DNA from: Sinorhizobium fredii NGR234
GTDB lineage: Bacteria > Pseudomonadota > Alphaproteobacteria > Rhizobiales > Rhizobiaceae
NCBI RefSeq assembly: GCF_000018545.1
Contig: NC_012586.1
Span: 1,612,001-1,676,000 of the forward strand
Length of the DNA: 64,000 bases
Direction: 5' to 3'
Shown here: piece after piece, positions 38,975 to 59,498 of the stretch
How the letters are laid out: each line of letters begins with the position of its first letter
How positions within the stretch are numbered: position 1 is the first letter of the stretch
The notes under the pieces: model-generated
The model's input: the letters and a program-made list of their open reading frames with translations, nothing else
Database searches by the model: none
Told to the model about the DNA's origin: nothing
Translations under genes and position numbers: made by a program

Positions 38975-38990
38975 TGACATTCCTCCCTTG

Positions 38991-39845: not shown

Positions 39846-39937
39846 CGAAATCACCCCCTCAACCAACATAATCAATGCACGAGTTCGGCATCACCGCTCT
39901 CCTCCCCAGGTCGGCGACAAAGACCAACTGGAATGCT

Positions 39938-39971
39938 AATACCTTCTGGTCTTCTAATTCCATTTAGTATT
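39938..39971. promoter_or_regulatory. Two degenerate copies of the RATACC-N4-RGTATY operator
   Basis: AATACCTTCTGGTCTT (39938-39953) and AATTCCATTTAGTATT (39956-39971) each match the island operator with one changed position per arm, 18 nt apart. TGTCAA at 39985-39990 gives a minus-strand TTGACA, but it is only 14 nt from the ATACT in the second copy, unlike the 16-17 nt at the other sites. The sites are 93 nt or more upstream of the membrane-protein gene. Confidence 0.4.
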
Positions 39972-40991: not shown

Positions 40992-41019
40992 GAATATTCC
41001 TCCATTTGTCGCGCCGAGA

Positions 41020-43362: not shown

Positions 43363-43399
43363 AATACCAATCAGTATCCGAATGCAGTGAGCGTGTCAA
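43363..43399 (-). promoter_or_regulatory. P450-operon promoter with TetR-type operator (site F)
   Basis: Operator AATACCAATCAGTATC at 43363-43378. On the minus strand TTGACA (43399-43394), 16 nt, then ATACTG (43377-43372) form a sigma70-type promoter whose -10 lies inside the operator, so a bound repressor would block it. About 128 nt upstream of the P450 start. Confidence 0.72.
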
Positions 43400-43424
43400 T
43401 CCCGCAATGCAATTACGCCGGCGC

Positions 43425-43453
43425 TTGCACATTTAAATACCATGTGGTATTTG
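43425..43453 (+). promoter_or_regulatory. Alcohol-dehydrogenase promoter with TetR-type operator (site G)
   Basis: Operator AATACCATGTGGTATT at 43436-43451, perfect 6-bp arms. TTGCAC (43425-43430), 17 nt, TATTTG (43448-43453) form a plus-strand promoter overlapping it, 47 nt before the dehydrogenase ATG. It lies 58 nt from site F, so one divergent control region serves both genes. Confidence 0.7.
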
Positions 43454-43499
43454 AAAACCTGTCGGTATGTTACTATTGAGGGTGGAACGGGAGGAATTC

Positions 43500-44609
43500 A
43501 TGACTGAGACGATGCGCGCCGCGCGGCTGCACGCGGTCGGAGAACCGATGAGAATAGATGAGGTGGCGCGACCCGTGGCCACCGGAAGCGACGTTGTTGT
43601 CGAGGTCAAGGCCTGCGGCATGGTACCCAATCTCGCCAATGTGCTCGCGAACTGGGAAAACTGGTACCCGCAAATGCCCTTGCCGCCGCGTCCCGCGATT
43701 CATGGCCTCGATCCTTCGGGCATCGTCCATCAGGTCGGCGAGCAGGTCGTGGCGATCAAGCCTGGCGACCGGGTATATGTTAATCCGGGCCGTTTCTGCG
43801 GCGCCTGCCACGCCTGCACGTCTGGACGCCCGCAGGCCTGCGATCATTGGACGCTCGGCGGCTACTTCGGCTACAACCCTAAGAGCCTGGAGATGTTCAA
43901 ACGCTATCCCTACGGGGGGTTCAGCGAATATATGCTGGCGCCCCAGGCCCAAGTCATCAAGATTCCGGACAACATGTCCTTCGTGCAGGGCTCGCGGATG
44001 GGCTACCTCGGCACCTCCTACGCAGCCTTGAAAAAGTGCGGTCCTCTGATGGGGCGCTCGCTGATCATCAACGGCGCCACCGGGACGCTCGGCGTCGGCG
44101 CCACTCTTTTCGCGCTCGCGATGGGGGCCGGCAAGATCTATGCGGTCGCGCGTGGCGACGAATTGCTTACTCGGCTGAAGGCGCTTGCGCCGAACCGGAT
44201 CGAAACCTTTTCGAACCGGACCGGCTCGAGCGGTGACTTTGTGAAGGCCAGAACAGCCGGCGTGGGCGCCGATCTGATGCTCGATACGCTTGGTGCCAAG
44301 GCGCCGCTCGGATCCATGCTCGACGCCATGAAAGGCGTGCGCAGAGGTGGTCGCATCGTCAATATCGGCGGAACCGCCGGCGACCTTCCCGTCGACGTGA
44401 AATGGTGGATGGACGAGCAGATGGAGCTGATCGGCTCCGTCTGGTTCACCGCAGCCGAAGGGATGGAGATCGCCGCAATGGTCGAAAGCAAGGTCGTTGA
44501 CCTCTCCGTAATGGAGCCAATGGTCTGGCCGCTCGAAAGCATCAATGAGGCCATTTCCGGTGTCGCCTCGGGCGATGGCGGCTTCACCTACTACGCTGTT
44601 ACGATCTGA
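43500..44609 (+). CDS. Zinc-type MDR alcohol dehydrogenase
   Basis: A 369-residue medium-chain dehydrogenase. Structural-zinc cysteines sit in GRFCGACHACTSGRPQACDHW, and the cofactor-binding motif is NGATGTLGVGATLFALAMGAG. The catalytic-zinc site is unusual: KACGMVPNL in place of GxCGSD and HGLDPSG where most have GHE, so zinc ligation differs or the active site is specialised. GGGAGGA 6 nt before the ATG at 43500 sets the start. Divergent from the P450 and controlled by site G, it may oxidise an aromatic alcohol or aldehyde made by this pathway. Followed by a strong terminator. Confidence 0.88.
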   Translation: MTETMRAARLHAVGEPMRIDEVARPVATGSDVVVEVKACGMVPNLANVLANWENWYPQMPLPPRPAIHGLDPSGIVHQVGEQVVAIKPGDRVYVNPGRFCGACHACTSGRPQACDHWTLGGYFGYNPKSLEMFKRYPYGGFSEYMLAPQAQVIKIPDNMSFVQGSRMGYLGTSYAALKKCGPLMGRSLIINGATGTLGVGATLFALAMGAGKIYAVARGDELLTRLKALAPNRIETFSNRTGSSGDFVKARTAGVGADLMLDTLGAKAPLGSMLDAMKGVRRGGRIVNIGGTAGDLPVDVKWWMDEQMELIGSVWFTAAEGMEIAAMVESKVVDLSVMEPMVWPLESINEAISGVASGDGGFTYYAVTI

Positions 44610-44651
44610 GGGACGCTCAGCGCGTTCGGGGTAGCAATCGCTACGTACACA

Positions 44652-44681
44652 CCCCGCCCGGTGCCGCCGGGCGGGGTTTTT
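44652..44681 (+). terminator. Rho-independent terminator of the alcohol-dehydrogenase gene
   Basis: CCCCGCCCGG (44652-44661) pairs with CCGGGCGGGG (44667-44676), 5-nt loop, followed by five T residues. A textbook intrinsic terminator 43 nt after the stop codon. Confidence 0.9.
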
Positions 44682-44868
44682 GCATGTGTCTGGCGGACGT
44701 GTCACCCAAGGGCCCGCAAACGCTATTTGGCCATCGGCCCCTTGGGGGGCGCGCGAGAACGCGCGGGATGCGGGCCTCGGGTCATAAGGTCCGCCGTTGG
44801 AATGAGCCCACATTCAAGCCGTAAGTGCCTGGAGATGCCACCCGCTGGCCCGGCACACGCCGAAACGC

Positions 44869-44894
44869 AGATGCCCGCCTCGCGGCGGGCATCT
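44869..44894 (-). terminator. Hairpin downstream of pntB
   Basis: AGATGCCCGC (44869-44878) and GCGGGCATCT (44885-44894) form a perfect 10-bp stem with a 6-nt loop, 22 nt beyond the pntB stop. Read on the minus strand it is followed by GCGTTTC, a weak T run. Probable end of the LigK-to-pntB transcript. The rest of 44682-44868 shows no gene. Confidence 0.6.
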
Positions 44895-44915
44895 GTCTCA
44901 GGCTGGGTCTGAAGC

Positions 44916-46316
44916 TCAGTGATTGATCGCCTTGACAATCTCCTCGGTGACCTTCTTGGCGTCGCCCAAGAGCATCATCGTGCCGTCCTTGTAGAACAGC
45001 GTGTTGTCGATGCCGGCATAGCCGGAGCCGAGCGAGCGCTTGACGAACAGGCAGGTCTTGGCCTTGTCGACGTCGAGGATCGGCATGCCGTAGATCGGCG
45101 AGGTCTTGTCGTCGCGCGCCGCCGGGTTGGTGACGTCGTTGGCGCCGATGACATAGGCGACGTCGGCCTGGGCGAACTCGGAATTGATGTCCTCGAGCTC
45201 GAACACCTCGTCATAGGGGACGTTCGCCTCGGCGAGCAGCACGTTCATGTGCCCGGGCATGCGGCCGGCGACCGGATGGATCGCGTATTTGACTTCGACG
45301 CCGGCCTCCTTGAGCTTGTCGGCAAGTTCCCGGAGCGAGTGCTGCGCCTGCGCCACCGCCATGCCGTAGCCCGGCACGATGATCACCTTCGAGGCGTTCT
45401 GCATCAGGAAGGCGGCATCGTCGGCCGAGCCCTGCTTGACCGTCTTCTGCACGCCGCTGTCGTCCGCGGCGATCGCCGTCTCGCCGCCGAAGCCGCCGAG
45501 GATCACCGAGATGAAGGAGCGGTTCATGCCCTTGCACATGATGTAGGAGAGGATCGCCCCCGAGGAACCGACCAGCGCCCCGGTGATGATCAGCGCCAGG
45601 TTGCCGAGGGTGAAGCCGATACCGGCGGCCGCCCAGCCGGAATAGGAGTTCAGCATCGACACCACCACCGGCATGTCGGCGCCGCCGATCGGAACGATGA
45701 TCAGCACGCCGAGCGCCAGCGACAGAAGGACGATCGCCCAGAAATTGAAGTGGCTCTCGGTCAACGCCAGGCCGATGATGAAGAAGACGACGAGGGCGGC
45801 GAGCGCCAGGTTGATCAGATGGCGGTAGGGCAAAAGGATCGGCTTGCCGGACATCCGGCCGTCGAGCTTGAGGAAGGCGATGATCGATCCGGTGAAGGTG
45901 ATCGCGCCGATCGCCACGCCGAGCGCCATCTCGACGAGCGCCTGGGCATGGATCGAGCCCACTTCGCCGATGCCGAAGGAGGACGGCGCGTAGAGCGCCC
46001 CGGCCGCGACCAGCACCGCGGCAAGACCGACCAGCGAATGGAAGCCGGCGACGAGCTGCGGCATCGCCGTCATCGGGATGCGCTTGGCGATGTAGGCACC
46101 GACGCCGCCGCCGAGCGCGAGGCCGAGAACGATCAACAGCAAACCGCCGATCGACGGCCCGGCCAAAAGCAGCGTCGTGACGATGGCAATGGCCATGCCC
46201 ACCATGCCGTAGGCATTGCCCTTGCGACTGGTGGTCGGATGCGAGAGACCGCGGAGCGCCATGATGAACAGCACGCCGGAGACGAGATAGAGGAAGGCTG
46301 CAAAGTTCGCGTTCAT
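44916..46316 (-). CDS. pntB: Proton-translocating NAD(P) transhydrogenase subunit beta
   Basis: A 466-residue inner-membrane subunit: about nine helices, then the NADP(H)-binding domain III with VIIVPGYGMAVAQAQHSLRE, HPVAGRMPGHMNVLLAEANV and the end KRSLGSGYAGIDNTLFYK. It uses the proton gradient to reduce NADP+ with NADH, together with both alpha genes upstream. The ATG at 46316 is correct; a longer frame runs into pntAb. Third and last of the pnt genes, which follow a ferredoxin gene. Confidence 0.95.
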   Translation of the reverse strand: MNANFAAFLYLVSGVLFIMALRGLSHPTTSRKGNAYGMVGMAIAIVTTLLLAGPSIGGLLLIVLGLALGGGVGAYIAKRIPMTAMPQLVAGFHSLVGLAAVLVAAGALYAPSSFGIGEVGSIHAQALVEMALGVAIGAITFTGSIIAFLKLDGRMSGKPILLPYRHLINLALAALVVFFIIGLALTESHFNFWAIVLLSLALGVLIIVPIGGADMPVVVSMLNSYSGWAAAGIGFTLGNLALIITGALVGSSGAILSYIMCKGMNRSFISVILGGFGGETAIAADDSGVQKTVKQGSADDAAFLMQNASKVIIVPGYGMAVAQAQHSLRELADKLKEAGVEVKYAIHPVAGRMPGHMNVLLAEANVPYDEVFELEDINSEFAQADVAYVIGANDVTNPAARDDKTSPIYGMPILDVDKAKTCLFVKRSLGSGYAGIDNTLFYKDGTMMLLGDAKKVTEEIVKAINH

Positions 46317-46326
46317 CGGCCCCGCC

Positions 46327-46737
46327 TCACTTTTCTTTCTTCTTGTACATGGCGAGCATGCGCTGGGTGACGAGGAAGCCGCCGAAGATGTTGACGGAAG
46401 CAAGCACCAGCGCCACGAAGCCGAAGCCGGTGGCAAGCCCGGAAGCGGAGATCCCGACGGCCAAGAGCGCGCCGACGACGATCACCGATGAGATCGCGTT
46501 GGTCACCGCCATCAGCGGCGTGTGCAGCGCCGGCGTCACCGACCAGACGACGTAATAGCCGACGAAGATCGCCAGCACGAAGATCGCCAGGCGGAAGACA
46601 AAAGGATCGATAGCGCCGCCGGTGGCGCCATGGGCAACCGCCCCGGCCGCATCCGGCACGTATTCGGCGGCGGTCCTGACCGCCTCGACCGCCCGTTCAA
46701 GGTCGGTCAGTGCCTTGTCCAACAGTTCGTTCGCCAT
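46327..46737 (-). CDS. pntAb: NAD(P) transhydrogenase subunit alpha part 2 (membrane domain)
   Basis: A 136-residue protein with three or four membrane helices ([57 protein letters not shown]). It is the membrane part of PntA, separate from the NAD-binding part as in other alphaproteobacteria. The ATG at 46737 overlaps the stop of pntAa (TGATG). Confidence 0.94.
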
Positions 46738-47891
46738 CACTTTTCCCCCTCATTCGTGCCGCCGAAGGCCGGATGCACCACGGCGCCGCCATAGGTCAGC
46801 GCCGTTGCCTTGACGAGTTCGTCCTCCATGTTCACCGCCAGCCGCTTTTCCTCCTTGGAGACCATCGTCTCCAAAAAGGTGACGAGGTTCTTGGCATAAA
46901 GGAGCGAGGCGGAGGCGGCGATGCGGCCCGGCACGTTGAGGTGCCCGACGACCTTGACGCCGGCGACCTCCGTCACCTTGCCGGCTTCTGCCCCCTCGAC
47001 GTTGCCGCCGCGCTCGACGGCGAGGTCGACGACGACCGAGCCGGGCTTCATCGAATGGAGCATTTCGCGGGTGACGAGCCGCGGCGCCGGGCGGCCGGGG
47101 ATCAGCGCCGTAGTGATGACGATGTCCTGCTTGGAAATGTGATCGGCGACGAGTGCGGCCTGCTTGGCCTGATACTCCTTCGACATCTCCTTGGCATAGC
47201 CGCCGGCGGTTTCGGCCGCCTTGAACTCCTCGTCCTCGACGGCGATGAACTTGGCGCCGAGCGAGGCGACCTGTTCCTTGGCCGCCGGACGGACGTCGGT
47301 TGCCGAGACGACGGCGCCCAAGCGCCTTGCAGTGGCGATCGCCTGCAGGCCGGCAACGCCGGCGCCCATGACGAACACCTTCGCGGCCGGCACCGTGCCG
47401 GCCGCAGTCATCATCATCGGCAGCGCCCGATCATATTCGTGGGCCGCATCGATCACCGCCTGATAACCGGCGAGGTTCGCCTGCGAGGAAAGCACGTCCA
47501 TCGATTGCGCCCGGGTGATGCGCGGCATCAACTCCATGGCGAAGGCGGTTACGCCGGCGTTGGCCATGGCGGCGATCGCCTCCGCGTTGCCGTAAGGGTC
47601 CATGATGGCGATGACGAGCGCGCCCGGCTTGTAGGCGGCGATCTCCCCGGCGATCGGGCGGCGGACCTTCAGGATGACGTCGGCGGTCTTGGCATCGGCG
47701 GCGCTCCCGATCCGGGCGCCGGCCTTCTCGAACTCAGCATCCGGAATGCGCGAACAGCGGCCTGCTCCGGCCTCCACGACTACCTCAAGGCCGAACGACA
47801 GGATTTTCTTCACCGTCTCAGGCGAGCCCGCTACGCGCGGCTCGTCGGGACTGCTTTCCCTTGCAATGTAAACACTTACACTCACCGTCAC
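46737..47891 (-). CDS. pntAa: NAD(P) transhydrogenase subunit alpha part 1 (NAD-binding)
   Basis: A 384-residue cytoplasmic subunit homologous to alanine dehydrogenase: [20 protein letters not shown] at the start, the Rossmann motif [20 protein letters not shown], and [17 protein letters not shown]. The start is a GTG; the second GTG at 47885 is better spaced from GGAGG. Only 55 nt separate it from the ferredoxin stop, without a terminator, so it is probably read through from the LigK-cupin-reductase-ferredoxin operon. Confidence 0.94.
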
Positions 47892-47946
47892 CTACCTCCG
47901 GGCGGTAATGGATCACTGATTGGAGAGATACGCCCCGGCGAAGAGG

Positions 47947-48264
47947 TCAGTCTTCCGGTGCCAGCGTCACGATCATGCCCGCAAGCTCCGCAGTGAAACG
48001 TACCTGGCAGGACAGCCGCGATTGCGGTCGCCGGTGATCCGAACTGTCGAGCAGATCGTCTTCATCGACGGAGAGCGACGGTAGATGTTCCTGGAAATCG
48101 TCATCGACATAGACGTGACAGGTGGCACAGGAACAGCAGCCGCCACAAAGCGCCAGCAATTCGTCCACGCCCGCATCGCGGATATGCTCCATGATCGAGA
48201 TTCCATCGCGCCCCTCGACGGGCACGATCTGTCCGTTTCGCGAGATCACCGTAAAATTCGACAT
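47947..48264 (-). CDS. [2Fe-2S] ferredoxin, putidaredoxin type
   Basis: A 105-residue ferredoxin. The cluster ligands are Cys40, Cys46, Cys49 and Cys86 ([10 protein letters not shown], and LSCQV), the C-x5-C-x2-C...C spacing of adrenodoxin/putidaredoxin-type proteins. Two extra Cys (43, 44) lie in the loop. It starts 29 nt after the reductase stop and would pass single electrons from that reductase to the P450. Confidence 0.94.
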
Positions 48265-48293
48265 TTAAACCTCCCACATCGCTCTCGTGTGCT

Positions 48294-49508
48294 TCACGCA
48301 AGGGCCAGCGATTTCAGTCTGATGCTGTTGTTTGCCAGGACGTCCGGACTGACGCGCGCGCGCCTTTCGACCAGCATTCGGCCTTCGACGTAGTCCCTGA
48401 CGCTATTGATGCAGTCCAGGGCGATCACCGCACCCTCGCGGAGATAGACGATACTGAAGCTGCGGGTGTTGGGATCGCCGCGCACCACCGTCCTGTCGAA
48501 GCCGGCGGAAAGACCCACGGTCTGAAGCCGGAGGTCGTACTGGTTCGACCAGAACCAGGGCGTTGCGCTGTAAGGCGTCAATTCCCCGCAAAGCGTCTTT
48601 GCCACGGCAGTGGCCTGATCATGGGCATTCTGCACGGACTCGATCCGCAGGCCGTGGGCGCTCTTGACCCGGGCGCAGTCGCCGACCGCGAACACGTCCG
48701 GCAGACTTGTCCGGCAATGCTCGTCGACGTCGAGGCCGTTCTCTCCCGACGCTCCGGCCTCGATCAGCGGTTCGACACAAGGCACGATACCGATGCCGAC
48801 GATCGCGATATCCGCAGGAAGCGTCACACCATCCTTCAAGAGAACGCCAGTGAGGCGTCCCTCGCTACCGACGAACTTGTCGACACCGGTCTCGAGCCTG
48901 ATTTCGACGCCGTGGTCACGGTGCTCCCTCTCATAGAAACGAGACAGCGGTTCCGCCGCGACACGGGCAAGCACCCTGTTCATCGCTTCGACGACGGTCA
49001 CCGTCTTTCCGAGCTTGGTTAGCGCGGCCGCGGCCTCGAGCCCGATGTAACCGCCGCCGACGACCACCACTCCTTCCGCGCTGGCAAGATCCTTCACGAG
49101 CCGGTCCACATCCGAGCGTGTCCGGACCGCGTGGATGCCTTGAAGATCATGACCGGGGCAGGACATCCGGCGCGGGCGCCCGCCAGCGGACCAGATGAGG
49201 TAGCCGTAACTGTAGGTGGCACCGTCCGCGCAAAGGACCTGCTTCTCCTTCGCGTGGACCTTGACGACTTCGTGCCCGAGCAGCAGGTCGATGCTGCGCG
49301 ACGTCCAGAACTCAGCCGGCCGGATCAGAATGCGGTCGAAGGTCTTGCCACCAAGGAGATAATCCTTGGAGAGGGGCGGACGTTCATAAGGCGGATCCCG
49401 GTCTTCGCTGAGGATTCCGATCGATCCTTGGAAGCCGTTCTGACGAAGCGACGTCGCTGCCTGGGCGCCCCCGTGCCCGCTTCCGACGATGAGGCAATCG
49501 TAATGCAT
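48294..49508 (-). CDS. FAD-dependent ferredoxin reductase, putidaredoxin-reductase type
   Basis: A 404-residue flavoprotein with FAD motif LIVGSGHGGAQAATSLR, the class motif PPYERPPLSKDYLLG, the NAD-binding motif VVVVGGGYIGLEAAAAL, and DVFAVGDCARV near the C-terminal third. It transfers electrons from NADH to the ferredoxin 29 nt downstream. The ATG at 49508 follows GGAGGGCG. GcoA from actinomycetes uses a fused reductase instead; here the class-I three-component layout is present. Confidence 0.93.
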   Translation of the reverse strand: MHYDCLIVGSGHGGAQAATSLRQNGFQGSIGILSEDRDPPYERPPLSKDYLLGGKTFDRILIRPAEFWTSRSIDLLLGHEVVKVHAKEKQVLCADGATYSYGYLIWSAGGRPRRMSCPGHDLQGIHAVRTRSDVDRLVKDLASAEGVVVVGGGYIGLEAAAALTKLGKTVTVVEAMNRVLARVAAEPLSRFYEREHRDHGVEIRLETGVDKFVGSEGRLTGVLLKDGVTLPADIAIVGIGIVPCVEPLIEAGASGENGLDVDEHCRTSLPDVFAVGDCARVKSAHGLRIESVQNAHDQATAVAKTLCGELTPYSATPWFWSNQYDLRLQTVGLSAGFDRTVVRGDPNTRSFSIVYLREGAVIALDCINSVRDYVEGRMLVERRARVSPDVLANNSIRLKSLALA

Positions 49509-49572
49509 CGCGCCCTCCTCCGGCAGCGTGAATTGCACATGTGTTGATTTCCGCGCGTGCGAGCGATGTTGC

Positions 49573-50130
49573 TCAGGAACGCGCTGCTCCAATCAGGACG
49601 AAGGCCATCGTTGCCGGCGACGTCCCTTTATTTCGCCAGGCATGGCGTGTGCCGCACTGGATCGCGACGTCGCCTTGCCGCAGATTGACCTCCGCCCCGT
49701 CATCGAGCTCCAGCCAGATCTCGCCTTCGAGCACGATGTCGTAGTCGATCGAGTCCGTCGTGTGCATCCCGGGGTTTTCGCGTTCGAAGAGTTCCGCGAG
49801 CCCAGGAAGGTGGACCTGCTGCTCCGCATCCGCCGCTGCGGGATCGAAGGACGGGTCCGCCATCACCGAGTCCGGCGGGAAACGAACGATCATCAAGCGC
49901 GTTTCGCCGGCCGAAGGGGTAATTCGGGTCCCGGGCAGAGCGGGGTCCGAACCATCCAGCGGCAACTCCGGACCGGCCGGCGTCGCCCAGCAGACCGACG
50001 TCATGAAACCGGGGATCGATGCATGCAGGTGCGCATTCGGCACGAGATCGTCGCTGACGAAGACGGAGCGGCCATTGCGGATGCCCGTCACGACCCGTCG
50101 CGGCACGGCTGATTTGCTCTCAGTCGACAT
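49573..50130 (-). CDS. Cupin-domain protein
   Basis: A 185-residue protein with a C-terminal beta-barrel cupin: [20 protein letters not shown] followed by [15 protein letters not shown]. The first motif lacks the G-x5-H-x-H histidines ([14 protein letters not shown] has a single His), so metal binding is in doubt. Its start overlaps the end of LigK by 11 nt, with GGAGGAAGGAC as ribosome site. Cupins of this type accompany catabolic genes as isomerases, tautomerases or regulators; a tautomerase for oxalomesaconate would fit the gap in the pathway but is only a suggestion. Confidence 0.82.
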
Positions 50131-50794
50131 AGACGAGTCCTTCCTCCGCGAGCTTCCGGCGCATGTTGTTGACGTCGAGGCTGAGTTCGCCCGCCGCATA
50201 ACGCAGCCGCTTCTCCTCCTCCATCTTCTCCCGCGCACGCCCCTTCTCGAGCACCATCGCCGCGTCCTCGGCGGGAACCACGCAGACGCCATCGTCATCG
50301 GCGACGATGACGTCGCCCGGGTTGATCAGGCATCCGGCACAGACGATCGGCACCTGGACATTGGCCAAGGTCTCCTTGACCGTCCCTTGGGCGGAGATGG
50401 CTTTCGACCACACGGGGAATTGCATTTCCGTCAGGGTGGCGACGTCACGTACGCCTGCATCTATGATCAGGCCGTGGATACCGAGCGCCTTGGCGGACGT
50501 CGCCAGGAGATCGCCGAAATAGCCGTCGTCGCAGGGCGATGTCGGCGTGACTACGAGAATGTCTCCCGGGCGGGCCTCGCCCAGCGCCACGTGGATCATC
50601 CAGTTGTCCCCGGGAGCGACCTCGCAGGTCAGCGCGTTGCCGGCAATCTTTGCGCGCCGATAGATCGGCCGCATATGGGGCGCAAGCAGGCCTCGTCTCC
50701 CCTGCGCCTCATGCACGGTAGCAACCCCAAGGGCACCGAGCCCGCGGACGATCGCATCGTCCATCCGCTTTATGTTCCGTATCACTTTCGCCAT
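50120..50794 (-). CDS. ligK: 4-carboxy-4-hydroxy-2-oxoadipate aldolase, LigK-like
   Basis: A 224-residue RraA-fold aldolase. LigK splits 4-carboxy-4-hydroxy-2-oxoadipate into pyruvate and oxaloacetate and decarboxylates oxaloacetate. Motifs: [41 protein letters not shown], and the active-site IDAGVRD with Arg116 and Asp117, then [20 protein letters not shown]. The CHA/HMG aldolase subgroup of RraA is indicated by the PGDNWMIHV and [12 protein letters not shown] phrases. First gene of the operon that continues with cupin, reductase, ferredoxin and pnt; promoter and TetR-type operator at 50853-50890. Confidence 0.9.
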
Positions 50795-50852
50795 GACGCC
50801 CCTCCCGCGGCAATCACTCCTGGAGAATCTGCAAGCCTCCCCAGCAATTTAG

Positions 50853-50890
50853 AATACCATTCAGTATCTGAATTCTATTCGGAATGTCAA
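50853..50890 (-). promoter_or_regulatory. ligK-operon promoter with TetR-type operator (site E)
   Basis: Operator AATACCATTCAGTATC at 50853-50868. Minus-strand TTGACA (50890-50885), 17 nt, ATACTG (50867-50862): the same promoter/operator layout as the other sites. It lies 59 nt upstream of ligK and only 22 nt from the IS target duplication, so the insertion spared it. Confidence 0.75.
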
Positions 50891-50911
50891 CCTCCATTCG
50901 TATGGAAATGG

Positions 50912-50920
50912 CTAGACTAG
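50912..50920. repeat. Left 9-bp target-site duplication of the IS
   Basis: CTAGACTAG, repeated in direct orientation at 52583-52591 on the other side of the element. Confidence 0.8.
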
Positions 50921-52582: not shown

Positions 52583-52591
52583 CTAGACTAG
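52583..52591. repeat. Right 9-bp target-site duplication of the IS
   Basis: CTAGACTAG, identical and in the same orientation as 50912-50920. Confidence 0.8.
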
Positions 52592-52601
52592 CGAAGAACA
52601 C

Positions 52602-52626
52602 AAAAAAGGGGCGCCCTGAGCGCCCC
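52602..52626 (-). terminator. Rho-independent terminator of the Liv-type operon
   Basis: GGGGCGC (52608-52614) pairs with GCGCCCC (52620-52626) around a 5-nt loop; on the minus strand the stem is followed by six T residues (AAAAAA at 52602-52607 on the plus strand). It lies 23 nt beyond the stop of the binding-protein gene and 11 nt from the IS target site. Confidence 0.88.
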
Positions 52627-52649
52627 CTTCACGATGTATTGGATCGCAG

Positions 52650-53891
52650 TCAATGTGACGGCGTCTTCCCTTCGAAGGAGATCATCGAGCCGACAGGCTG
52701 GTACGTTGCTCCATCGAACTGGAAGAGCTGCAGCGACTCGATGGGATAGACGTCCTCGCCGCTTTTCGTGTTCAGGGTGATGCCCGGCAGAAGCAGATCC
52801 AATTGGACACTGTCGAGGTTTCGAGCCGTCTCCATCATCGCTGCACGGGTTGGCTCCTTCATCGATGAGAGCACCTTCACCAGCGCATCGCCGGTCGCAT
52901 ATCCGACCTGACCGAGCGCGTCGTCGATGGCGAAGCTGGCCTTGGCGGCCTCACGGTCGGCGATGTAATGCTTGATGCCTGCGTCGTCGCCCGGGGCTTT
53001 GGCATTCACTTGCTTGAGGTATTGGCTTGTGATCACGCCTTTTGCATTTTCGAGGCCCGCCGGTTTCAGGGAAGCGACGGAGGCTGCGATGTTCGACACG
53101 AGAGTCGTCGGATTCCAGCCGCTCTCGGTGGCGAAGCGCACTGCTTCTGCCCCCTGCTTCGGACCGGTGATCACGACCAGGGTATCGGCACCGGAGGCCT
53201 TGAGGGTCGAAAGCTGGTTTTCGACCGTTGGGTCCGCCGAGGTCACCGGTTGCGCCGCGACGATCTTGATGTTGGACATGCTGACCGCGTCCTCCAGGGC
53301 CTTCTGGAAGGTCTGCCCCGTCTCGGTGTTCAGATAGAGAAGGGCGATTTTCGCTTCGGGCTTGGTGTCCAGCAGATAGCGCGCGAATGCGGCCGCCTCC
53401 GTCGTGAAGGAGGGAACGAGGCCGATCTCCCACTCCGGTCCGGCGAGTTCGTGGACGCCCGAATACATGAAGAGGTTGGGCACCTCGCGTTGCGTAATAT
53501 ACCGGCCGATCGCCTGGTTGTTAGGCGTGCCGGCCGTCGCCAGGACTGCGAACACCTCCTCGCGCTCAACGAGCTTGCGCACATTGGTGAGCGTGCGTTG
53601 CGGATCCAACCCGTCATCCTCGACGACAAGTTCGATCTTGCGGGTCTTGCCGTCGCCCATCTTGACGCCGCCCGCAGCATTGATGGCGTCGACCTTCGTC
53701 CTTACTCCCTCGGTGATCGCGCCGATCGCCGCAACCGGCCCGGTCAGCGGTCCTGAAATGCCGATGCGGACCGCATCGCTCGTGATGCCGGGGGACTCGC
53801 TCTCCTGTGCCTGGGCGCTGCCGGTCATAAGGCCCGTCAACGCCACCACATGCAGCAGGCTGAAAGCTCCTCTAGGAACGCGTATCGGCAT
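52650..53891 (-). CDS. Liv-type ABC transporter periplasmic binding protein
   Basis: A 413-residue family-4 binding protein with signal peptide (VPRGAFSLLHVVALTGLMTG, cleaved after SAQA). The mature start VRIGISGPLTGPVAAIGAIT, the NAAGGVKMGDGKTRKIELVV segment and ATAGTPNNQAIGRYI are typical of the LivK/aromatic-acid binding group. It is the last gene of the five-gene operon, 1 nt after LivM. In catabolic islands this family often imports aromatic acids rather than leucine; the operon has the island's TetR-type operator. Confidence 0.92.
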   Translation of the reverse strand: MPIRVPRGAFSLLHVVALTGLMTGSAQAQESESPGITSDAVRIGISGPLTGPVAAIGAITEGVRTKVDAINAAGGVKMGDGKTRKIELVVEDDGLDPQRTLTNVRKLVEREEVFAVLATAGTPNNQAIGRYITQREVPNLFMYSGVHELAGPEWEIGLVPSFTTEAAAFARYLLDTKPEAKIALLYLNTETGQTFQKALEDAVSMSNIKIVAAQPVTSADPTVENQLSTLKASGADTLVVITGPKQGAEAVRFATESGWNPTTLVSNIAASVASLKPAGLENAKGVITSQYLKQVNAKAPGDDAGIKHYIADREAAKASFAIDDALGQVGYATGDALVKVLSSMKEPTRAAMMETARNLDSVQLDLLLPGITLNTKSGEDVYPIESLQLFQFDGATYQPVGSMISFEGKTPSH

Positions 53892-53892
53892 G

Positions 53893-54900
53893 TCATTCTC
53901 CTCCCAATTGGCCGGGCAACGGGCCCGGCATTCGCGACAAGACCTTGAACTTGAAGACCGCAGAAAGAGCGGCGAGAAACGTCTCGATCCGCAGCCCGGC
54001 AATGCCCTGGCGGGCGACCATCATCATGGCGATCAGGCAGAGGCCGTAAATCAACCCGCCGAGTGCAGGGTTGATATCGGTCGTGAAGCCCGGCACGAAG
54101 ACGACGAAGCCGGCCCCGATGAAAGCGCCGGCAATGCTGGTGATGCCGCCGACGATACCGCCGATCAGGATGTCGATCGATTTCATCGGCAGGAACGATT
54201 GTGGGCTGATGAACCCGTTGAGGATGCAGAAGAGGCCGCCGCCAAGCCCGGCGAGCGCCGAACTCACGGCAAAGGCCGCCAAGCGGCCTTTCGTGAGATT
54301 GACGCCGAGCGCCTCGGCAATCACCGGATTGTCGCGGAGGGCGCGCATCAGACGACCGGTATCGCCGCGCAGCAGGCGCGTGACGACCATGATGGAGATG
54401 GCTGCGCATATCAGTGACACGCCATAGAGCCAGGCTTCCTGGCTGCCGGGGAACCATTTGGGCGCAAACGGCTGGTCGGTTGCAAGGCCGGTCACGCCGC
54501 CGGTCAGCGTGTCCATCTTCAACAGGAGCTGCGGAAAGGCCGACGCGACGCCGAAGGTGATGATCGCGAGCTGCAGACCTTGCAGCCTCAAGGCAGGGAG
54601 GCCGATGATCACGCCAATCAGCCCTGCGGAGACGGCCGCCAATGGGAGCGTCGCCAGCGGATCCAAGCCGAAACTGACATTGAGAATGGCCGTCGTATAG
54701 GCACCCACGCCGAACAACGCACCCTGTGCCAAGCAGATCTGTCCCGTGAAGCCGAGGAGCAAATTGAGGCCGAGGATCGCAATCCCGTAGGAGACGGCAA
54801 TGCTGATTTCGAACAACAGGAAATCCGGAACAACGAGAGGCGAGCCGAGGGCAGCGGCGACAAGGACCAAGGGGGCAAATCGAAGAAGTTGCGTGTTCAT
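53893..54900 (-). CDS. Liv-type ABC transporter permease (LivM)
   Basis: A 335-residue inner-membrane permease with about ten helices, including LGLNLLLGFTGQICLAQGALFGVGAYTTA, shown here as family landmark GFTGQICLAQGALFGVGA, and the EAA-like loop NPVIAEALGVNLTKGRLAAF. It overlaps LivH by four bases (ATGA). Confidence 0.93.
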   Translation of the reverse strand: MNTQLLRFAPLVLVAAALGSPLVVPDFLLFEISIAVSYGIAILGLNLLLGFTGQICLAQGALFGVGAYTTAILNVSFGLDPLATLPLAAVSAGLIGVIIGLPALRLQGLQLAIITFGVASAFPQLLLKMDTLTGGVTGLATDQPFAPKWFPGSQEAWLYGVSLICAAISIMVVTRLLRGDTGRLMRALRDNPVIAEALGVNLTKGRLAAFAVSSALAGLGGGLFCILNGFISPQSFLPMKSIDILIGGIVGGITSIAGAFIGAGFVVFVPGFTTDINPALGGLIYGLCLIAMMMVARQGIAGLRIETFLAALSAVFKFKVLSRMPGPLPGQLGGE

Positions 54901-55778
54901 AGCTTGACCACCGTGCGAGTACCGAAGAGACCGACCGGCCGAACGAGCAGGACGACGAGAGTGACGAGTATCGGGATCACCACGCGCAGATCCGCACCGA
55001 TGAAGGGGAGAAAGGTCGCGCCGAGGCTTTCCGCCACACCGACAATCAGACCGCCGATCATCGCCCCGAGCGGGCTGTCCCAGCCGCCAAGGGTCGCCGA
55101 CGCCAGGGCGTAGAGCAGGATCGGCATCATCATCGTCGGGCTCAGGAACAGCCGCGGCCCGACCAGAAGCGCCGCGACGAAGCCAATCACCGCGGCAAAG
55201 CCCCAGCCGAGCATCAGCATCCGTTCGACGGGGATCCCAACAAGCAGGCTCTTCTCGCCATCAAAGGCGGAGGCTCGCATGGCGAGGCCAAGCCGTGTGA
55301 AGCGAAAGACCGCCCCCGTGGCCACGGCGAGACAGAGCAGAAGGGCGATCATGCCGGCCGCACTTGCCGTCATGCGCACGCCAAGGAAATCCCAGCCGAT
55401 GTTCGGGAACAGCGAGGGAAAAGCACGCTGGTCGGAACCCCAGAGCCACAGGGATAGCGCCTGGAAGACGACGAAGAGCCCGAGCGTCACGACGACGACG
55501 GCCTCGACCGGGGCCTTAGAAACCGGCCTGATGACGAAGCGGAAAATGCCGATCCCGAGCACGAACGCGAAGACGCCGACGACGAGGAAGGAAAGCATCA
55601 TCGGCATGCCCCATTCATAGAGCTGCCAGGCACAATAAGCCGAGAAGGTGGCCATTTCGCCTTGCCCGAAATTGACGATGCGCGTCGCACGGAAGATCAG
55701 GACCAAGGCCAGCGCCAGGGACGCGTAGATGGCTCCGGATGCAAGGCCATCGACGACAAGTTGGAAGAACAGTTCCAT
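54897..55778 (-). CDS. Liv-type ABC transporter permease (LivH)
   Basis: A 293-residue permease with about eight helices. VDGLASGAIYASLALALVLI, then VNFGQGEMATFSAYCAW and the loop RASAFDGEKSLLVGIPVERM mark the LivH family. It follows LivF by 1 nt and overlaps LivM. Confidence 0.94.
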   Translation of the reverse strand: MELFFQLVVDGLASGAIYASLALALVLIFRATRIVNFGQGEMATFSAYCAWQLYEWGMPMMLSFLVVGVFAFVLGIGIFRFVIRPVSKAPVEAVVVVTLGLFVVFQALSLWLWGSDQRAFPSLFPNIGWDFLGVRMTASAAGMIALLLCLAVATGAVFRFTRLGLAMRASAFDGEKSLLVGIPVERMLMLGWGFAAVIGFVAALLVGPRLFLSPTMMMPILLYALASATLGGWDSPLGAMIGGLIVGVAESLGATFLPFIGADLRVVIPILVTLVVLLVRPVGLFGTRTVVKL

Positions 55779-55779
55779 C

Positions 55780-56490
55780 TCACACCCCCAGATAGGATTG
55801 CTGGACGGCCTCGTTGCCCAAGAGATCCCGCGCCGCGCCGCTCACCGTGAAAGATCCGGACTCGAGGACGTAGGCCGTATCCGCGAATTGGAGGGTGAGG
55901 TCGGCATTCTGCTCGACGATCAGGAGCGTCATGCCGTGCTCCCGATTGAGCGACTTGAGTATTTCGAAGATTTCTTCGGTGATCGCCGGCGCAAGGCCAA
56001 GCGAAGGCTCGTCGCACATCAGAAGCTTCGGGCGCGACATGAGCGCCCGGGCAAGGGCCAGCATCTGCTGCTCGCCGCCGCTGAGGCTGCCGGCCTGCTG
56101 CTGCCGACGCTCGGCGAGCCGCGGAAAGGCCGCGTACCACCGCTCCATGTCGGAGGCGATCTGTTGCCTGTCGCCGACCGTATAGGCCCCGACCGCAAGG
56201 TTTTCCTCAACCGTGAAGTCGCCGAATGTTCCGCGGCCCTGCGGTATGTGCGCAAGACCAAGCGCCACTCTCTGTGCCGCGTTGCAGGGGGTGAGATTCG
56301 AGCCGCAAAAATCGATCGTTCCCCGCGCCGGCATGAGCCCCGACAGAGCTCTAAGGATCGTCGTCTTGCCGGCGCCGTTCGATCCGAGCAGCGCTACGAT
56401 CGCGCCTTGCTCGACGAAAAAGTCGACGCCATGCAGAACGTCGGCTGCGCCGTATCCGGCGGATAGGCCTTGTACCTTTAGCATTGTCAT
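55780..56490 (-). CDS. Liv-type ABC transporter ATPase (LivF)
   Basis: A 236-residue ATPase: Walker A LLGSNGAGKTTILRALSG, signature LSGGEQQMLALARAL, Walker B KLLMCDEPSLGLAP and the H-loop LIVEQNADL. The short length and EQN sequence identify LivF. Overlaps LivG (ATGA). Confidence 0.95.
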   Translation of the reverse strand: MTMLKVQGLSAGYGAADVLHGVDFFVEQGAIVALLGSNGAGKTTILRALSGLMPARGTIDFCGSNLTPCNAAQRVALGLAHIPQGRGTFGDFTVEENLAVGAYTVGDRQQIASDMERWYAAFPRLAERRQQQAGSLSGGEQQMLALARALMSRPKLLMCDEPSLGLAPAITEEIFEILKSLNREHGMTLLIVEQNADLTLQFADTAYVLESGSFTVSGAARDLLGNEAVQQSYLGV

Positions 56491-57284
56491 CGCGCCCTCC
56501 CGAGATAGGCATCGATGACTGCCGGATTGGCCTTGACCTCTGCGGGCGTGCCGCTCGCCAGGTTGCGACCGAGGTGGAAAACCTCAATTCGATCGCAAAG
56601 GCTCATCACCAGACCCATATGGTGCTCGATGAGCACGATCGTGACGCCATGATCGTCGCGGACGCGGGTGACGAGCTCGCCGAACTCTGCAACTTCCCCA
56701 TGGGTGAGCCCGCCCGCCGGCTCATCGAGAAGAAGCACCGTGGGACGGGAGGCAAGCGCCCGGGCGATTTCCATGCGCTTTTGCGTCGGATAGGGCAGCG
56801 AGCCGGCTGTCTTGTCGGCAACGCCGGTGAGATTGAGGTGTTCGAGGATCGCCCGACAGTGCTGCTCCGTCGCGCTTTCCCGATCACGGGCACGCCCGGG
56901 TCGCAGCACCGCCTCGATAAAGCGGCCGCCCGTCAAGTGGTGGGCGCCAAGCATGACATTCTCCAGCACCGTCATGGCGCCGTAGATGCCGAGATTCTGA
57001 AACGTGCGCGCAACGCCCAGTTGGATGATTTGGCGCGCGGGCAACGCTTCGATCGCCCGTCCGCAAAGGCGGATCGAACCGGCGGTCACCGCGCTCAGCC
57101 GGGTAATGGAGTTGAACAGCGTCGTCTTGCCGGCGCCGTTCGGGCCAATCAGGCCGCATATTTCGCCGGCATTCACGCTGAGCGAGACGCCCTTTAGCGC
57201 ATGTATGCCGCCAAAGCGCACGTCAACATTTTCGACGGAAAGCACCGGGCCGCCGTTGCCGGCAGCCTTGAGATCCACAGCCAT
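56487..57284 (-). CDS. Liv-type ABC transporter ATPase (LivG)
   Basis: A 265-residue ATPase: Walker A LIGPNGAGKTTLFNSITR, signature as PYPTQKRMEIARALAS (a LivG-typical variant of LSGGQ), Walker B TVLLLDEPAGGLTHGE and LIEHHMGLVM, the H-loop of LivG. First gene of the transporter operon, 99 nt downstream of the operator/promoter at 57368-57405. Confidence 0.95.
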   Translation of the reverse strand: MAVDLKAAGNGGPVLSVENVDVRFGGIHALKGVSLSVNAGEICGLIGPNGAGKTTLFNSITRLSAVTAGSIRLCGRAIEALPARQIIQLGVARTFQNLGIYGAMTVLENVMLGAHHLTGGRFIEAVLRPGRARDRESATEQHCRAILEHLNLTGVADKTAGSLPYPTQKRMEIARALASRPTVLLLDEPAGGLTHGEVAEFGELVTRVRDDHGVTIVLIEHHMGLVMSLCDRIEVFHLGRNLASGTPAEVKANPAVIDAYLGRAR

Positions 57285-57353
57285 CCTATCCTCCCCTAGG
57301 GCTGTTCGGTCGGTCCCGAAGTTGTCGGCGCCAATTCTCCTCTGCGGCGCCGC

Positions 57354-57405
57354 TTGACAATCCTCAAGATACCGAAAAGTATCTGAAATCCGAACGGTAT
57401 GTCAA
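57354..57405. promoter_or_regulatory. Divergent promoters sharing one TetR-type operator (site B)
   Basis: Operator GATACCGAAAAGTATC at 57368-57383. Minus strand: TTGACA (57405-57400), 17 nt, ATACTT (57382-57377), for the transporter operon. Plus strand: TTGACA (57354-57359), 17 nt, AAGTAT (57377-57382), toward the DoxX gene at 57659. Both promoters use the same six bases as -10, inside the operator, so only one polymerase or the repressor can occupy it. The 57406-57658 leader holds no supported gene. Confidence 0.72.
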
Positions 57406-57658
57406 TGCTTACTTTGAAGTGTAGGGACAAGCCGTCGGGTAGCAATGATGTGAGGCGACCGCCTGCAAGCGGGAGAGCCGGCCGGGAGGGCAAATTGAGG
57501 AAGCAGTGTTTGAGCGGCCGGCTCGGCGGGCGAGACCTTCATCCGATCCGCGGTCCACGGCGGCACCCTCGCATATCGAACAGCGCCAGAAGCCTTGCCG
57601 GCAGGACCGGCCGGATGCTGCGTCAATCCAACAGACCACACCAAAAGGAGACACACAG

Positions 57659-58075
57659 ATGATCGATTCACGTACTGCCCCCTACGCCATCCTCATGCTG
57701 CGGGTGACACTCGGACTACTCTTTCTCGCCCATGCCGGTTTGAAGGTCTTCGTCTTCACGCCGGCCGGGACGGCGCAGTTCTTTGCAAGCCTCGGCCTGC
57801 CGGCTGCCCTCGCCTATCTGACGATCGCTCTCGAGACCCTGGGCGGCCTCGCCCTCATCGCCGGTTTCTTCGCGCGCGTGGCTGCGCTGGTCCTGATACC
57901 GGTATTGCTCGGCGCGATCATCATGGTCCATGCCGCGGCCGGCTTCTTCTTCACCAACCCGAATGGCGGATGGGAATTCTTGGCTTTGTGGATCGTTGGA
58001 TTGGCCGCGGTTGTTCTCGCGGGCGACGGTGCGCTTGCGGTGCGCCCGACCTTCAACAGCAAGGCAACCGCTTAA
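57659..58075 (+). CDS. DoxX-family membrane protein
   Basis: A 138-residue inner-membrane protein with four helices and the DoxX pattern LRVTLGLLFLAHAGLKVFVF, then ASLGLPAALAYLTIALETLG, and GGWEFLALWIVGLAAVVLAG. DoxX proteins have no assigned enzymatic role; some accompany oxidoreductases and sulfur or quinone metabolism. AAAGGAG 8 nt upstream fixes the start. Expressed from the plus-strand promoter at site B, so it is part of the regulon. A hairpin follows it. Confidence 0.88.
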   Translation: MIDSRTAPYAILMLRVTLGLLFLAHAGLKVFVFTPAGTAQFFASLGLPAALAYLTIALETLGGLALIAGFFARVAALVLIPVLLGAIIMVHAAAGFFFTNPNGGWEFLALWIVGLAAVVLAGDGALAVRPTFNSKATA

Positions 58076-58086
58076 TCATGGCGCTG

Positions 58087-58113
58087 GCCCGCGGCCGAAT
58101 AACTGCCGCGGGC
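58087..58113 (+). terminator. Hairpin between convergent DoxX and TetR genes
   Basis: GCCCGCGGC (58087-58095) pairs with GCCGCGGGC (58105-58113), 9-bp perfect stem, 9-nt loop, 12 nt after the DoxX stop. Followed by GCTCCCCTTTGC; likely terminator. Confidence 0.55.
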
Positions 58114-58143
58114 GCTCCCCTTTGCGTCGCACCCTCAACTGGC

Positions 58144-58746
58144 TCAGATCGCCTTTTCCCTGGCGCCATAGGCCTCGTACATCGATGTCAAGGCGACTTT
58201 CACAAGCTCGCCGACCGTCGGCCCGTTTGTGAAGCTCGACGCTGCGCCATAGGTGAGCTCGAAAACAATACCGCCGAGCGCCGTCGGACCGGCGGGCGCC
58301 CCGCCTTCCGGGAATATCCGAAGCAGTATCTTGCCCAATCCCTCCCATTGCGCGCGGAACAGGTTTGAATGACGCTCCCCGAAGGTGGCGTTGCGTCGCG
58401 CGTGGCGGAAGAGCTCCAATGCCAGCATCCCCCAGCTCGGGTCGGTAGAGCGCTCCTGGGCCCAATTGCTCAATGTATCGATCAAGTCGCGCGGATCTTC
58501 GATCGGACCGAGCAGTGCCTGCAGCTCGACGACGTCTTCGCCCGCATGGGTCTCGAGCAGGTAAAGGAAAATGTCTTCCTTGCCGTTGAAATTGGAATAG
58601 AAGGCTCCCTTGCTGAAGCCCGCTTCCTCGGCGATGCGTTCAATGGTTGCGCCCTCGTAACCTTCACGGGCGACGACCTCGCGCGCGGACGCCAGCAGCT
58701 TCGCTTTCGTCCGCGCCTGGCTCTGTTCTCGTGTCAATCGCGCCAA
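58144..58746 (-). CDS. TetR-family repressor, probable regulator of the island
   Basis: A 200-residue TetR protein. Helix-turn-helix at about residues 28-58: GATIERIAEEAGFSKGAFYSNF, typical of the AcrR-like group, with the C-terminal ligand and dimer domain unassigned. Its own promoter carries a consensus copy of RATACC-N4-RGTATY (58777-58792), the motif that recurs in front of the P450, alcohol dehydrogenase, ligK, transporter and frmA genes. It is the only regulator inside the island, so it is the best candidate to bind all these sites and to be released by an aromatic pathway compound. Function as repressor is inferred from operator/-10 overlap. Confidence 0.92.
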   Translation of the reverse strand: MARLTREQSQARTKAKLLASAREVVAREGYEGATIERIAEEAGFSKGAFYSNFNGKEDIFLYLLETHAGEDVVELQALLGPIEDPRDLIDTLSNWAQERSTDPSWGMLALELFRHARRNATFGERHSNLFRAQWEGLGKILLRIFPEGGAPAGPTALGGIVFELTYGAASSFTNGPTVGELVKVALTSMYEAYGAREKAI

Positions 58747-58776
58747 GATTACTCTCCCTGATTGCTATCGCACTCG

Positions 58777-58813
58777 GATACCTCCCAGTATCTCTAAAAG
58801 GCTGGGGCGTCAA
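58777..58813 (-). promoter_or_regulatory. TetR-gene promoter with its own operator (site D)
   Basis: Operator GATACCTCCCAGTATC at 58777-58792. Minus-strand TTGACG (58813-58808), 16 nt, ATACTG (58791-58786). The -35 box overlaps the last codon of the DoxX-2 gene. Layout as in the other sites, implying autoregulation; 31 nt before the TetR start. Confidence 0.75.
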
Positions 58814-59169
58814 TCAAGCACGGCCAGGACGCAAGCCGCCGACCAGAAGATCATGAACTCCGGCCCCTGCTTCTGCCAGCGCCAGTTCCAACCGTTGATA
58901 CGAAGGACGGCATAGCTGGCGCCAAGCAGAACGGCGACAGCCAGACCGGCCGCAAGCTTCGGAAAGATATTGAGGACCAGTCCCGAGCCGGCAATCAGTT
59001 CGGCGATGATGGTAATGATCACGAACGCTCCAGCCGGATGGAACCCGGCCTTGGCAAATGTTGCCGAAGCGGGCCCGACATTTCGCATTTTGCCGATGCA
59101 ATGGGGAATGAACCAGAGGCCGCACAGCACCCGAAGAACTGAGCTCGGCTCGACGGAAAGGAAATCCAT
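58810..59169 (-). CDS. Second DoxX-family membrane protein
   Basis: A 119-residue protein with three to four helices and the DoxX pattern VLRVLCGLWFIPHCIGKMRN, then AGAFVIITIIAELIAGSGLV. Distantly related to the first DoxX protein at 57659. GGAGGGC before the ATG. Its upstream neighbour is a tiny gene ending 12 nt before the start, and both would be read from the minus-strand promoter at 59498-59470. Confidence 0.86.
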   Translation of the reverse strand: MDFLSVEPSSVLRVLCGLWFIPHCIGKMRNVGPASATFAKAGFHPAGAFVIITIIAELIAGSGLVLNIFPKLAAGLAVAVLLGASYAVLRINGWNWRWQKQGPEFMIFWSAACVLAVLD

Positions 59170-59181
59170 AGCCGGGCCCTC

Positions 59182-59355
59182 CTATGCCGCTTTCGGTGCT
59201 TCGATCTGGCGCTTGCCGCCACCCGGTGCTGAAGTACCGGGCGACCTCAGGTGAGACTCCGACGGAGGCAGCACCTCACTGGAACCGCCGCTACCCGGCG
59301 CATTCATGTTAACTTTCGAACCGCTCGGCGGCTGCGCTCCCGCGACATCAAACAT
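59182..59355 (-). CDS. Small Pro/Gly/Ser-rich protein upstream of DoxX-2
   Basis: A 57-codon frame with ATG at 59355, preceded by AGGGAGGG 5 nt upstream, an excellent ribosome site, and ended by TAG 12 nt before the DoxX-2 ATG. The product (MFDVAGAQPPSGSK at the start, KRQIEAPKAA at the end) is hydrophilic, rich in Pro, Gly and Ser, and without signal or membrane segment; probably disordered. The codon use and spacing fit an operon with DoxX-2. No family recognised; possibly a leader peptide or partner for DoxX. Confidence 0.55.
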   Translation of the reverse strand: MFDVAGAQPPSGSKVNMNAPGSGGSSEVLPPSESHLRSPGTSAPGGGKRQIEAPKAA

Positions 59356-59449
59356 TCGAACCCTCCCTGTCTGCGTCAGTTTGACCGATCGCCCAGGACC
59401 CCTATCGGGTCACGGATCGATCATGTGAACACCAACTCGAAACTGCATC

Positions 59450-59498
59450 TTGCAATTTCGGATACCAATGAGTATCTACAAACCACTAAGAACGTCAA
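59450..59498. promoter_or_regulatory. Divergent promoters sharing one TetR-type operator (site C)
   Basis: Operator GATACCAATGAGTATC at 59461-59476. Plus strand: TTGCAA (59450-59455), 17 nt, TATCTA (59473-59478), for frmA. Minus strand: TTGACG (59498-59493), 17 nt, ATACTC (59475-59470), for the small gene and DoxX-2. The two -10 elements overlap inside the operator. Confidence 0.73.

Follow-up and report, generated by a model that had tools for sequence, protein, structure and literature searches.

The window analysed here is a stretch of 64,000 nt from Sinorhizobium fredii NGR234 (contig NC_012586.1, C2:1612001-1676000), whose genome comprises 6.89 Mb in three contigs. The window carries a catabolic island with genes for a cytochrome P450, LigJ- and LigK-type enzymes, a Liv-type ABC transporter, dehydrogenases and a TetR-family regulator (Table 1). 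A 16-bp palindrome recurs in the promoters of these genes, including that of the regulator, and is considered here as the putative operator of a TetR regulon.

The palindrome in the window and in the genome

Six zero-mismatch copies of RATACC-N4-RGTATY are found where a previous sequence-only reading had placed them, and these are the sole exact matches in the window. When up to 2 mismatches are allowed there are 23 window matches, compared with a mean of 8.6 in 100 shuffles (standard deviation 4.0, largest 20). By the adopted gene starts all six copies are intergenic, as had been claimed; a raw open reading frame (ORF) from an upstream TTG (59450) overlaps the site at 59461, and the frmA alignment begins at 59522. 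The motif as originally written describes the six window sites, but as a general form it gives way to the symmetric RATACY-N4-RGTATY, which fits both this island and a second one described below.

The symmetric form has 15 exact matches in the whole genome against 1 for the reversed pattern, and 63 against 19 with one mismatch. Six of the 15 are the window sites, six are at C2:1474230-1493104 in the second island, and three are single strays inside unrelated ORFs of 442, 290 and 405 aa. A motif scattered at random frequency inside genes had been named as the outcome that would speak against a regulon; instead, 12 of the 15 exact sites and all matches to the tandem form (next section) fall in the two islands, with the three strays alone in ORFs. 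The existence of the six sites is confirmed, and their distribution is far from that of a chance motif.

A tandem arrangement with 18-bp spacing

A matrix built from the 12 exact island sites was scored at each offset, with a threshold that passes about 1% per offset. A second palindrome is present at +/-18 bp in 9 of these 12 sites, in none at 16, 17, 19, 20 or 28 bp, and in 3 at 36 bp. The 68 sites from related genomes (see below) show the same preference, with a second palindrome at +/-18 bp in 46, at 16 bp in 0, at 20 and 28 bp in 1 each, and at 36 bp in 14; at single offsets, 16 pass at -7 and 10 at +30. When up to 3 mismatches are allowed, the corresponding tandem pattern, ATACY-N4-RGTAT-N4-ATACY-N4-RGTAT, matches the genome 13 times. 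Every one of these matches is within the two islands, where they are distributed over 11 operator regions, and the control has 0. The tandem form is thus enriched at the promoters of one gene set.

The picture of one palindrome per promoter is correct for the tetR promoter (58777), but it overlooked the 18-bp partner at five of the six sites, the partner of 59461 being weak. No partner palindrome is detected in the matrix offset scan at the tetR promoter of either island (58777; L016:8915), and at the frmA site of the second island (L016:8230) the partner score is under the threshold. The six promoter regions first assigned to the regulon stand. However, a seventh, preceding the hypothetical protein and YceI-family genes (39938/39956), had been missed, and the regulon is larger than was claimed.

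Table 1. Genes and palindromic sites of the island (window coordinates).
Position	Strand	Feature	Remarks
38393..39875	-	Hypothetical protein and YceI-family protein	YceI domain; hypothetical protein without Pfam match
39938..39953	.	Putative operator half-pair AATACCTTCTGGTCTT	Hypothetical-YceI promoter; 1 mismatch; second-island counterpart L017:9089 exact
39956..39971	.	Putative operator half-pair AATTCCATTTAGTATT	18 bp from 39938; 1 mismatch
40083..43235	-	NMT1-like solute-binding protein (SBP), LigJ-like hydratase, cytochrome P450	
43345..43360	.	Weak partner palindrome of 43363	
43363..43378	.	Putative operator, P450-ligJ-SBP promoter	Reads leftwards
43436..43451	.	Putative operator, alcohol dehydrogenase (ADH) promoter	Reads rightwards, TTGCA type
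43454..43469	.	Partner palindrome of 43436	
43500..44609	+	Zinc-type ADH	
44916..50794	-	LigK, cupin, ferredoxin reductase (FdR), ferredoxin (Fdx), transhydrogenase subunits (pnt)	
50853..50868	.	Putative operator, ligK-cupin-FdR-Fdx-pnt promoter	Reads leftwards
50871..50886	.	Partner palindrome of 50853	
52650..57284	-	Liv-type ABC transporter	
57368..57383	.	Putative operator, livGFHMK promoter	Reads leftwards
57386..57401	.	Partner palindrome of 57368	
57659..58075	+	DoxX-family protein 1	
58144..58746	-	TetR-family regulator	TTG start; PF00440 53.2 bits
58777..58792	.	Putative single operator, tetR promoter	Without partner
58810..59169	-	DoxX-family protein 2	
59461..59476	.	Putative operator between divergent DoxX2 and frmA	
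59479..59494	.	Weak partner palindrome of 59461	3 mismatches to tandem pattern
59522..60634	+	frmA, S-(hydroxymethyl)glutathione dehydrogenase	TIGR02818 623.4 bits, cut-off 543.95

A DDE transposase gene (51110-52444) is situated between livK and the ligK operator, and the operator at 50853 is intact. The corresponding gap, from livK to the ligK operator, is too short for a DDE transposase gene in the second island and in S. alkalisoli.

A second, paralogous island

The region C2:1474-1494 kb is an inverted and diverged copy of the island, ~160-200 kb from the one in the window. DNA identity between the two is 78-85% in seven aligned blocks and 70% in one short block. By Pfam content the copy has a frmA-type ADH, two DoxX proteins flanking a TetR, an ABC transporter, a LigK-type protein and a reductase, and further a transhydrogenase, an ADH, a P450, a LigJ-type protein and an NMT1-like protein; its cupin and LivG genes are inside aligned DNA blocks. 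Thirteen stop-free protein pairs are 82-96% identical between the islands, a comparison that left out LigJ, the NMT1-like protein, ferredoxin, PntA, LivG and the cupin.

The six exact sites of the copy are the counterparts of those at 59461, 58777, 57368, 50853 and 43436 and of the 39938/39956 region, and the site corresponding to 43363 (C2:1488855) deviates by one mismatch. Each of the seven promoter regions thus has a site in both islands, despite the divergence of the DNA. The TetR of the copy is 90.5% identical to that of the window, and 64 of the 66 N-terminal residues are the same. Because of this second regulator, the statement that there is one TetR gene is true of the window, but not of the genome.

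Promoter geometry

On the strand that reads towards the target, TTGAC is found at -22 or -21 for the sites 43363, 50853, 57368, 58777 and 59461, and TTGCA at -11 for 43436 and, on the frmA side, for 59461. Each of the six sites therefore has a TTGAC or TTGCA element, as had been proposed, but the -35/-10 spacers counted from these elements are 15-17 nt and not 16-17 nt. The proposal that the repeat includes the -10 hexamer also agrees with the data, the palindrome overlapping the -10 at most sites. Among the 80 exact sites from the genome and its relatives, TTGAC is present at -24 to -17 in 56, compared with 1 in a shifted interval; after removal of sites with similar flanks, which keeps 55 non-redundant sites of the 80, the numbers are 35 and 1. 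Since the strong palindrome coincides with the -10 and its partner is usually in the spacer, the arrangement is the standard position of a blocking repressor. At 57368 the + strand also displays an opposite-strand TTGACA at -14 that is kept in both islands and may serve the divergent DoxX1 gene.

The TetR protein

The regulator has a TetR_N helix-turn-helix (HTH) domain (PF00440, cut-off 24 bits). Its AlphaFold2 model consists of helices only (pLDDT 83.1, pTM 0.73), in agreement with the TetR fold and its C-terminal ligand domain, and a Foldseek search with the model gives matches to TetR proteins such as EthR2, FadR, NemR and QacR, with TM scores of ~0.46-0.71 and 15-22% identity among the matches listed. 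The best solved relatives by sequence score ~40 bits, and the top two (AcnR) align over ~75-85 N-terminal residues. Some relatives carry the name 'repressor of aconitase', a label given by their source. Sixteen NCBIfam TetR families are matched (named ones include ScbR, AcuR, RutR and BetI) and none reaches its cut-off, the best being ScbR with 51.8 bits against 150. A literature search of open-access papers found no description of this TetR subfamily or its operator. In the available parts of PMC12314914, PMC12997858 and PMC6366072 the string "tetr" belongs to tetrahydrofolate, tetranucleotide or tetrachloroethene, and in that of PMC10866074 it concerns multidrug efflux. The description of the regulon as undescribed is in keeping with these searches, in which no NCBIfam cut-off was reached and no account was met in open-access papers.

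Conservation in related genomes

Relatives were collected with a profile of 20 aligned TetR sequences, one genome per species, and the best 80 of 105 loci were analysed, without thinning of related sites. The exact motif is present in 39 of the 41 loci whose TetR is 50-95% identical to that of the window (L021-L061) and in 4 of the 39 remaining, more distant loci; with reversed sequences it is found in 0 of 80. The 41 loci span Alpha-, Beta- and Gammaproteobacteria and one Arthrobacter, and include Sinorhizobium/Ensifer, Phyllobacterium, Rhizobium, Mesorhizobium, Bradyrhizobium, Pseudomonas, Paraburkholderia, Pseudoduganella and Sphingobium. The genes that recur beside TetR are ADH, LigJ, LigK, the NMT1-like protein, DoxX2 and the cupin, in varying order.

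Annotated genes were compared with the matches in two relatives, covering 26 of 29 features in S. alkalisoli (L135; the last three, beyond all matches, omitted) and 30 of 30 in R. anhuiense (L136), the latter having a gene order unlike that of the window. All 9 and 4 single matches with up to one mismatch (13/13), and all 6 and 4 tandem matches (10/10), are intergenic. In S. sojae and Rhizobium sp. 007 there are six exact sites each, spaced as in the window, and four tandem matches each.

Co-occurrence was also assayed without selection in 151 genomes of the family, with TetR called at E<=1e-50. Five are TetR-positive and have 13, 4, 4, 4 and 4 tandem matches, the control having 0; the 146 TetR-negative genomes have a mean of 0.42, compared with 0.45 in the control. 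The tandem sites listed for three genomes (G063, G064, G029) are within ~26 kb of a TetR gene, with the exception of one in G029 on another contig, which carries the P450. A search for the P450 in 397 genomes of the order gave a match in 3 of them, too few for a P450-based control.

Several observations weigh against the assignment of the motif to this TetR. Two of the 41 close loci (L025, L033) have one-mismatch sites only. The 80 loci were picked via TetR, so that proximity of the motif is conditional on that choice, and the related genomes are not independent. The 151-genome assay rests on five positive genomes, one of which is that of the window, and one TetR-negative genome also reaches 4 tandem matches. 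The exact single motif is above control in TetR-negative genomes too (mean 1.19 against 0.66); at the genome level it is a weak marker and the tandem form a much better one. A P450 locus in a TetR-positive genome (L102) has no exact site in 4.2 kb, but does hold a 3-mismatch tandem. A crude ORF caller places 31 of the 80 sites inside ORFs, with 83% of the DNA called coding; when the initial 200 nt of each called ORF are disregarded to allow for over-long starts, 5 of 80 sites remain inside, the core so defined representing 64% of the DNA. The binomial P for this count takes no account of relatedness and was set aside. Finally, 15 of the 68 sites in relatives pass at +/-19 bp and 6 at +/-17 bp, so that 18 bp is the dominant spacing but not an absolute one.

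An unsupervised dyad count over the 41 loci did not rank the motif first, since the counts are dominated by GC-rich dyads, and the control with reversed sequences was uninformative; the dyad GATAC-N6-GTATC, counted in 20 of the 41 loci, was not used as evidence. In Massilia and Herbaspirillum (L063, L068-L071) one-mismatch sites that equal or resemble RATACCGNNYGGTATA are found ~4.4-5.1 kb before a TetR gene of 44-47% identity, and these are perhaps an operator variant of a sister group.

Predicted catabolic pathway

LigJ matches 4-oxalomesaconate hydratase with 477 bits and LigK exceeds two equivalog cut-offs; both are enzymes of the 4,5-cleavage (protocatechuate/gallate) pathway. LigJ- and LigK-type genes occur in two copies in the genome, one set per island (window 38393-60634; C2:1473000-1495000). 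The LigJ-LigK pathway is fed by the dioxygenases LigAB, DesB or GalA. NGR234 has LigJ and LigK in common with it, but no match to the LigB-type dioxygenase domain PF02900 is found in its genome (E<=0.001), in a search that did give matches in 4 of 14 control genomes. For the ring-cleaving step, the conserved cupin (49573-50130) is a candidate.

The top match of the P450 is an unnamed P450 (298 bits). The best informatively named matches are GcoA-type aromatic O-demethylases (~250 bits), and GcoAB is named as a P450 aromatic O-demethylase in the available part of PMC12997858. Unlike GcoAB, the island has separate ferredoxin and reductase genes, and LigJ and LigK alongside the P450. Relatives add the formaldehyde genes fghA or gfa. 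In a TetR-linked locus of Sphingobium terrigena (L044:5723-8915) there are a DesA/LigM-like demethylase, with 504 and 471 bits under cut-offs of 800 and 580, and genes with methylenetetrahydrofolate reductase (MTHFR) and formyl-transferase domains. Since formaldehyde and one-carbon genes stand beside an aromatic oxygenase, the gene content points to O-demethylation of methoxylated aromatics as the probable role of the island.

The S. alkalisoli fghA gene (L135:3025-3858) adjoins the P450 operon, and the equivalent place in the window is too small for it. The one-carbon module of the S. terrigena locus is a different one, beside the same motif.

A more far-reaching possibility, offered tentatively and with rather more doubt than confidence, is that the regulon represents an entire undescribed route from methoxylated plant aromatics to the 4-oxalomesaconate branch without a LigB-type dioxygenase. 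The cupin or another island enzyme would open the ring, and one TetR subfamily with 18-bp tandem operators would control the route in Alpha-, Beta- and Gammaproteobacteria and some Actinobacteria.

Proposed regulation and alternatives

The palindromes very probably serve as operator for the TetR protein encoded at 58144-58746 and for the paralogous regulator in the second island, with dimers that would occlude seven promoter regions until a pathway ligand releases them. A TetR dimer would bind the strong 16-bp palindrome over the -10, and at most targets a second dimer would occupy the weaker palindrome at 18 bp distance, which is mostly situated between -35 and -10. In this way RNA polymerase would be excluded from the P450-ligJ-SBP, ADH, ligK-cupin-FdR-Fdx-pnt, livGFHMK, hypothetical-YceI, DoxX2/frmA and tetR regions, the lone site of tetR giving a milder self-repression. 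Release would be brought about by a small pathway molecule; this is probably an aromatic that carries methoxyl or hydroxyl groups, or the product of its ring cleavage. Binding, repression, ligand and substrate are all inferred here from sequence. The co-occurrence of motif and TetR subfamily across several classes, in differing gene orders, supports the original view that one motif marks a TetR regulon.

The palindromes might instead be the operator of a regulator encoded elsewhere, the TetR gene being a mere neighbour. The available part of PMC12314914 describes catabolic genes of this branch under regulators of other types, with GalR, VanR2, DesR and DesX of the LysR, GntR, MarR and IclR types controlling syringate, vanillate and gallate catabolism. 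This alternative is improbable, however, as S. alkalisoli has no annotated regulator other than TetR in its island, and R. anhuiense none other in the homologous part of its stretch, the tetR promoter bears a site in both islands, and the motif tracks TetR over several classes and fades as TetR identity drops. It is marginally less probable still that TetR, although bound to the sites, is an activator, or mainly a sensor that forms no roadblock, and not a repressor. Some TetR proteins are activators, but here the palindrome overlaps the -10 at most sites, which fits occlusion. That the repeats only reflect a common promoter sequence or leftover duplicated DNA, with no regulator, is suggested by the inclusion of the -10 hexamer and the paralogy of the islands, but can be practically dismissed. 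Palindromic symmetry, a partner 18 bp away and the lack of tandem matches outside the islands are unexpected for plain promoters, and the motif persists where TetR identity is only 50-60%.

Catabolic repressors of the TetR type that act on palindromic operators over promoters are a known general kind. The features shared with these are an HTH repressor gene in the island, a site at its own promoter, and palindromes over the -35/-10; what differs is that the protein stays below the cut-off of every named NCBIfam TetR family. As far as the accessible portion of PMC12314914 goes, the island resembles the GalR, VanR2, DesR and DesX systems in the control of O-demethylation and 4-oxalomesaconate-branch genes, but its putative regulator is a TetR protein. 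Thus the kind of regulon is already known, while this pair of subfamily and predicted operator is new and well supported.

Implications

For rhizobia and other soil bacteria, the analysis provides a clean predicted regulator-operator pair, together with a defined set of genes for degrading lignin-type aromatics that are probably methoxylated. The high specificity of the tandem operator in the genome allows it to be used to delimit the pathway, and the genes under it, including the cupin and the NMT1-like protein, are candidates for pathway members. The inducer, once found, would indicate the substrate and yield a biosensor.

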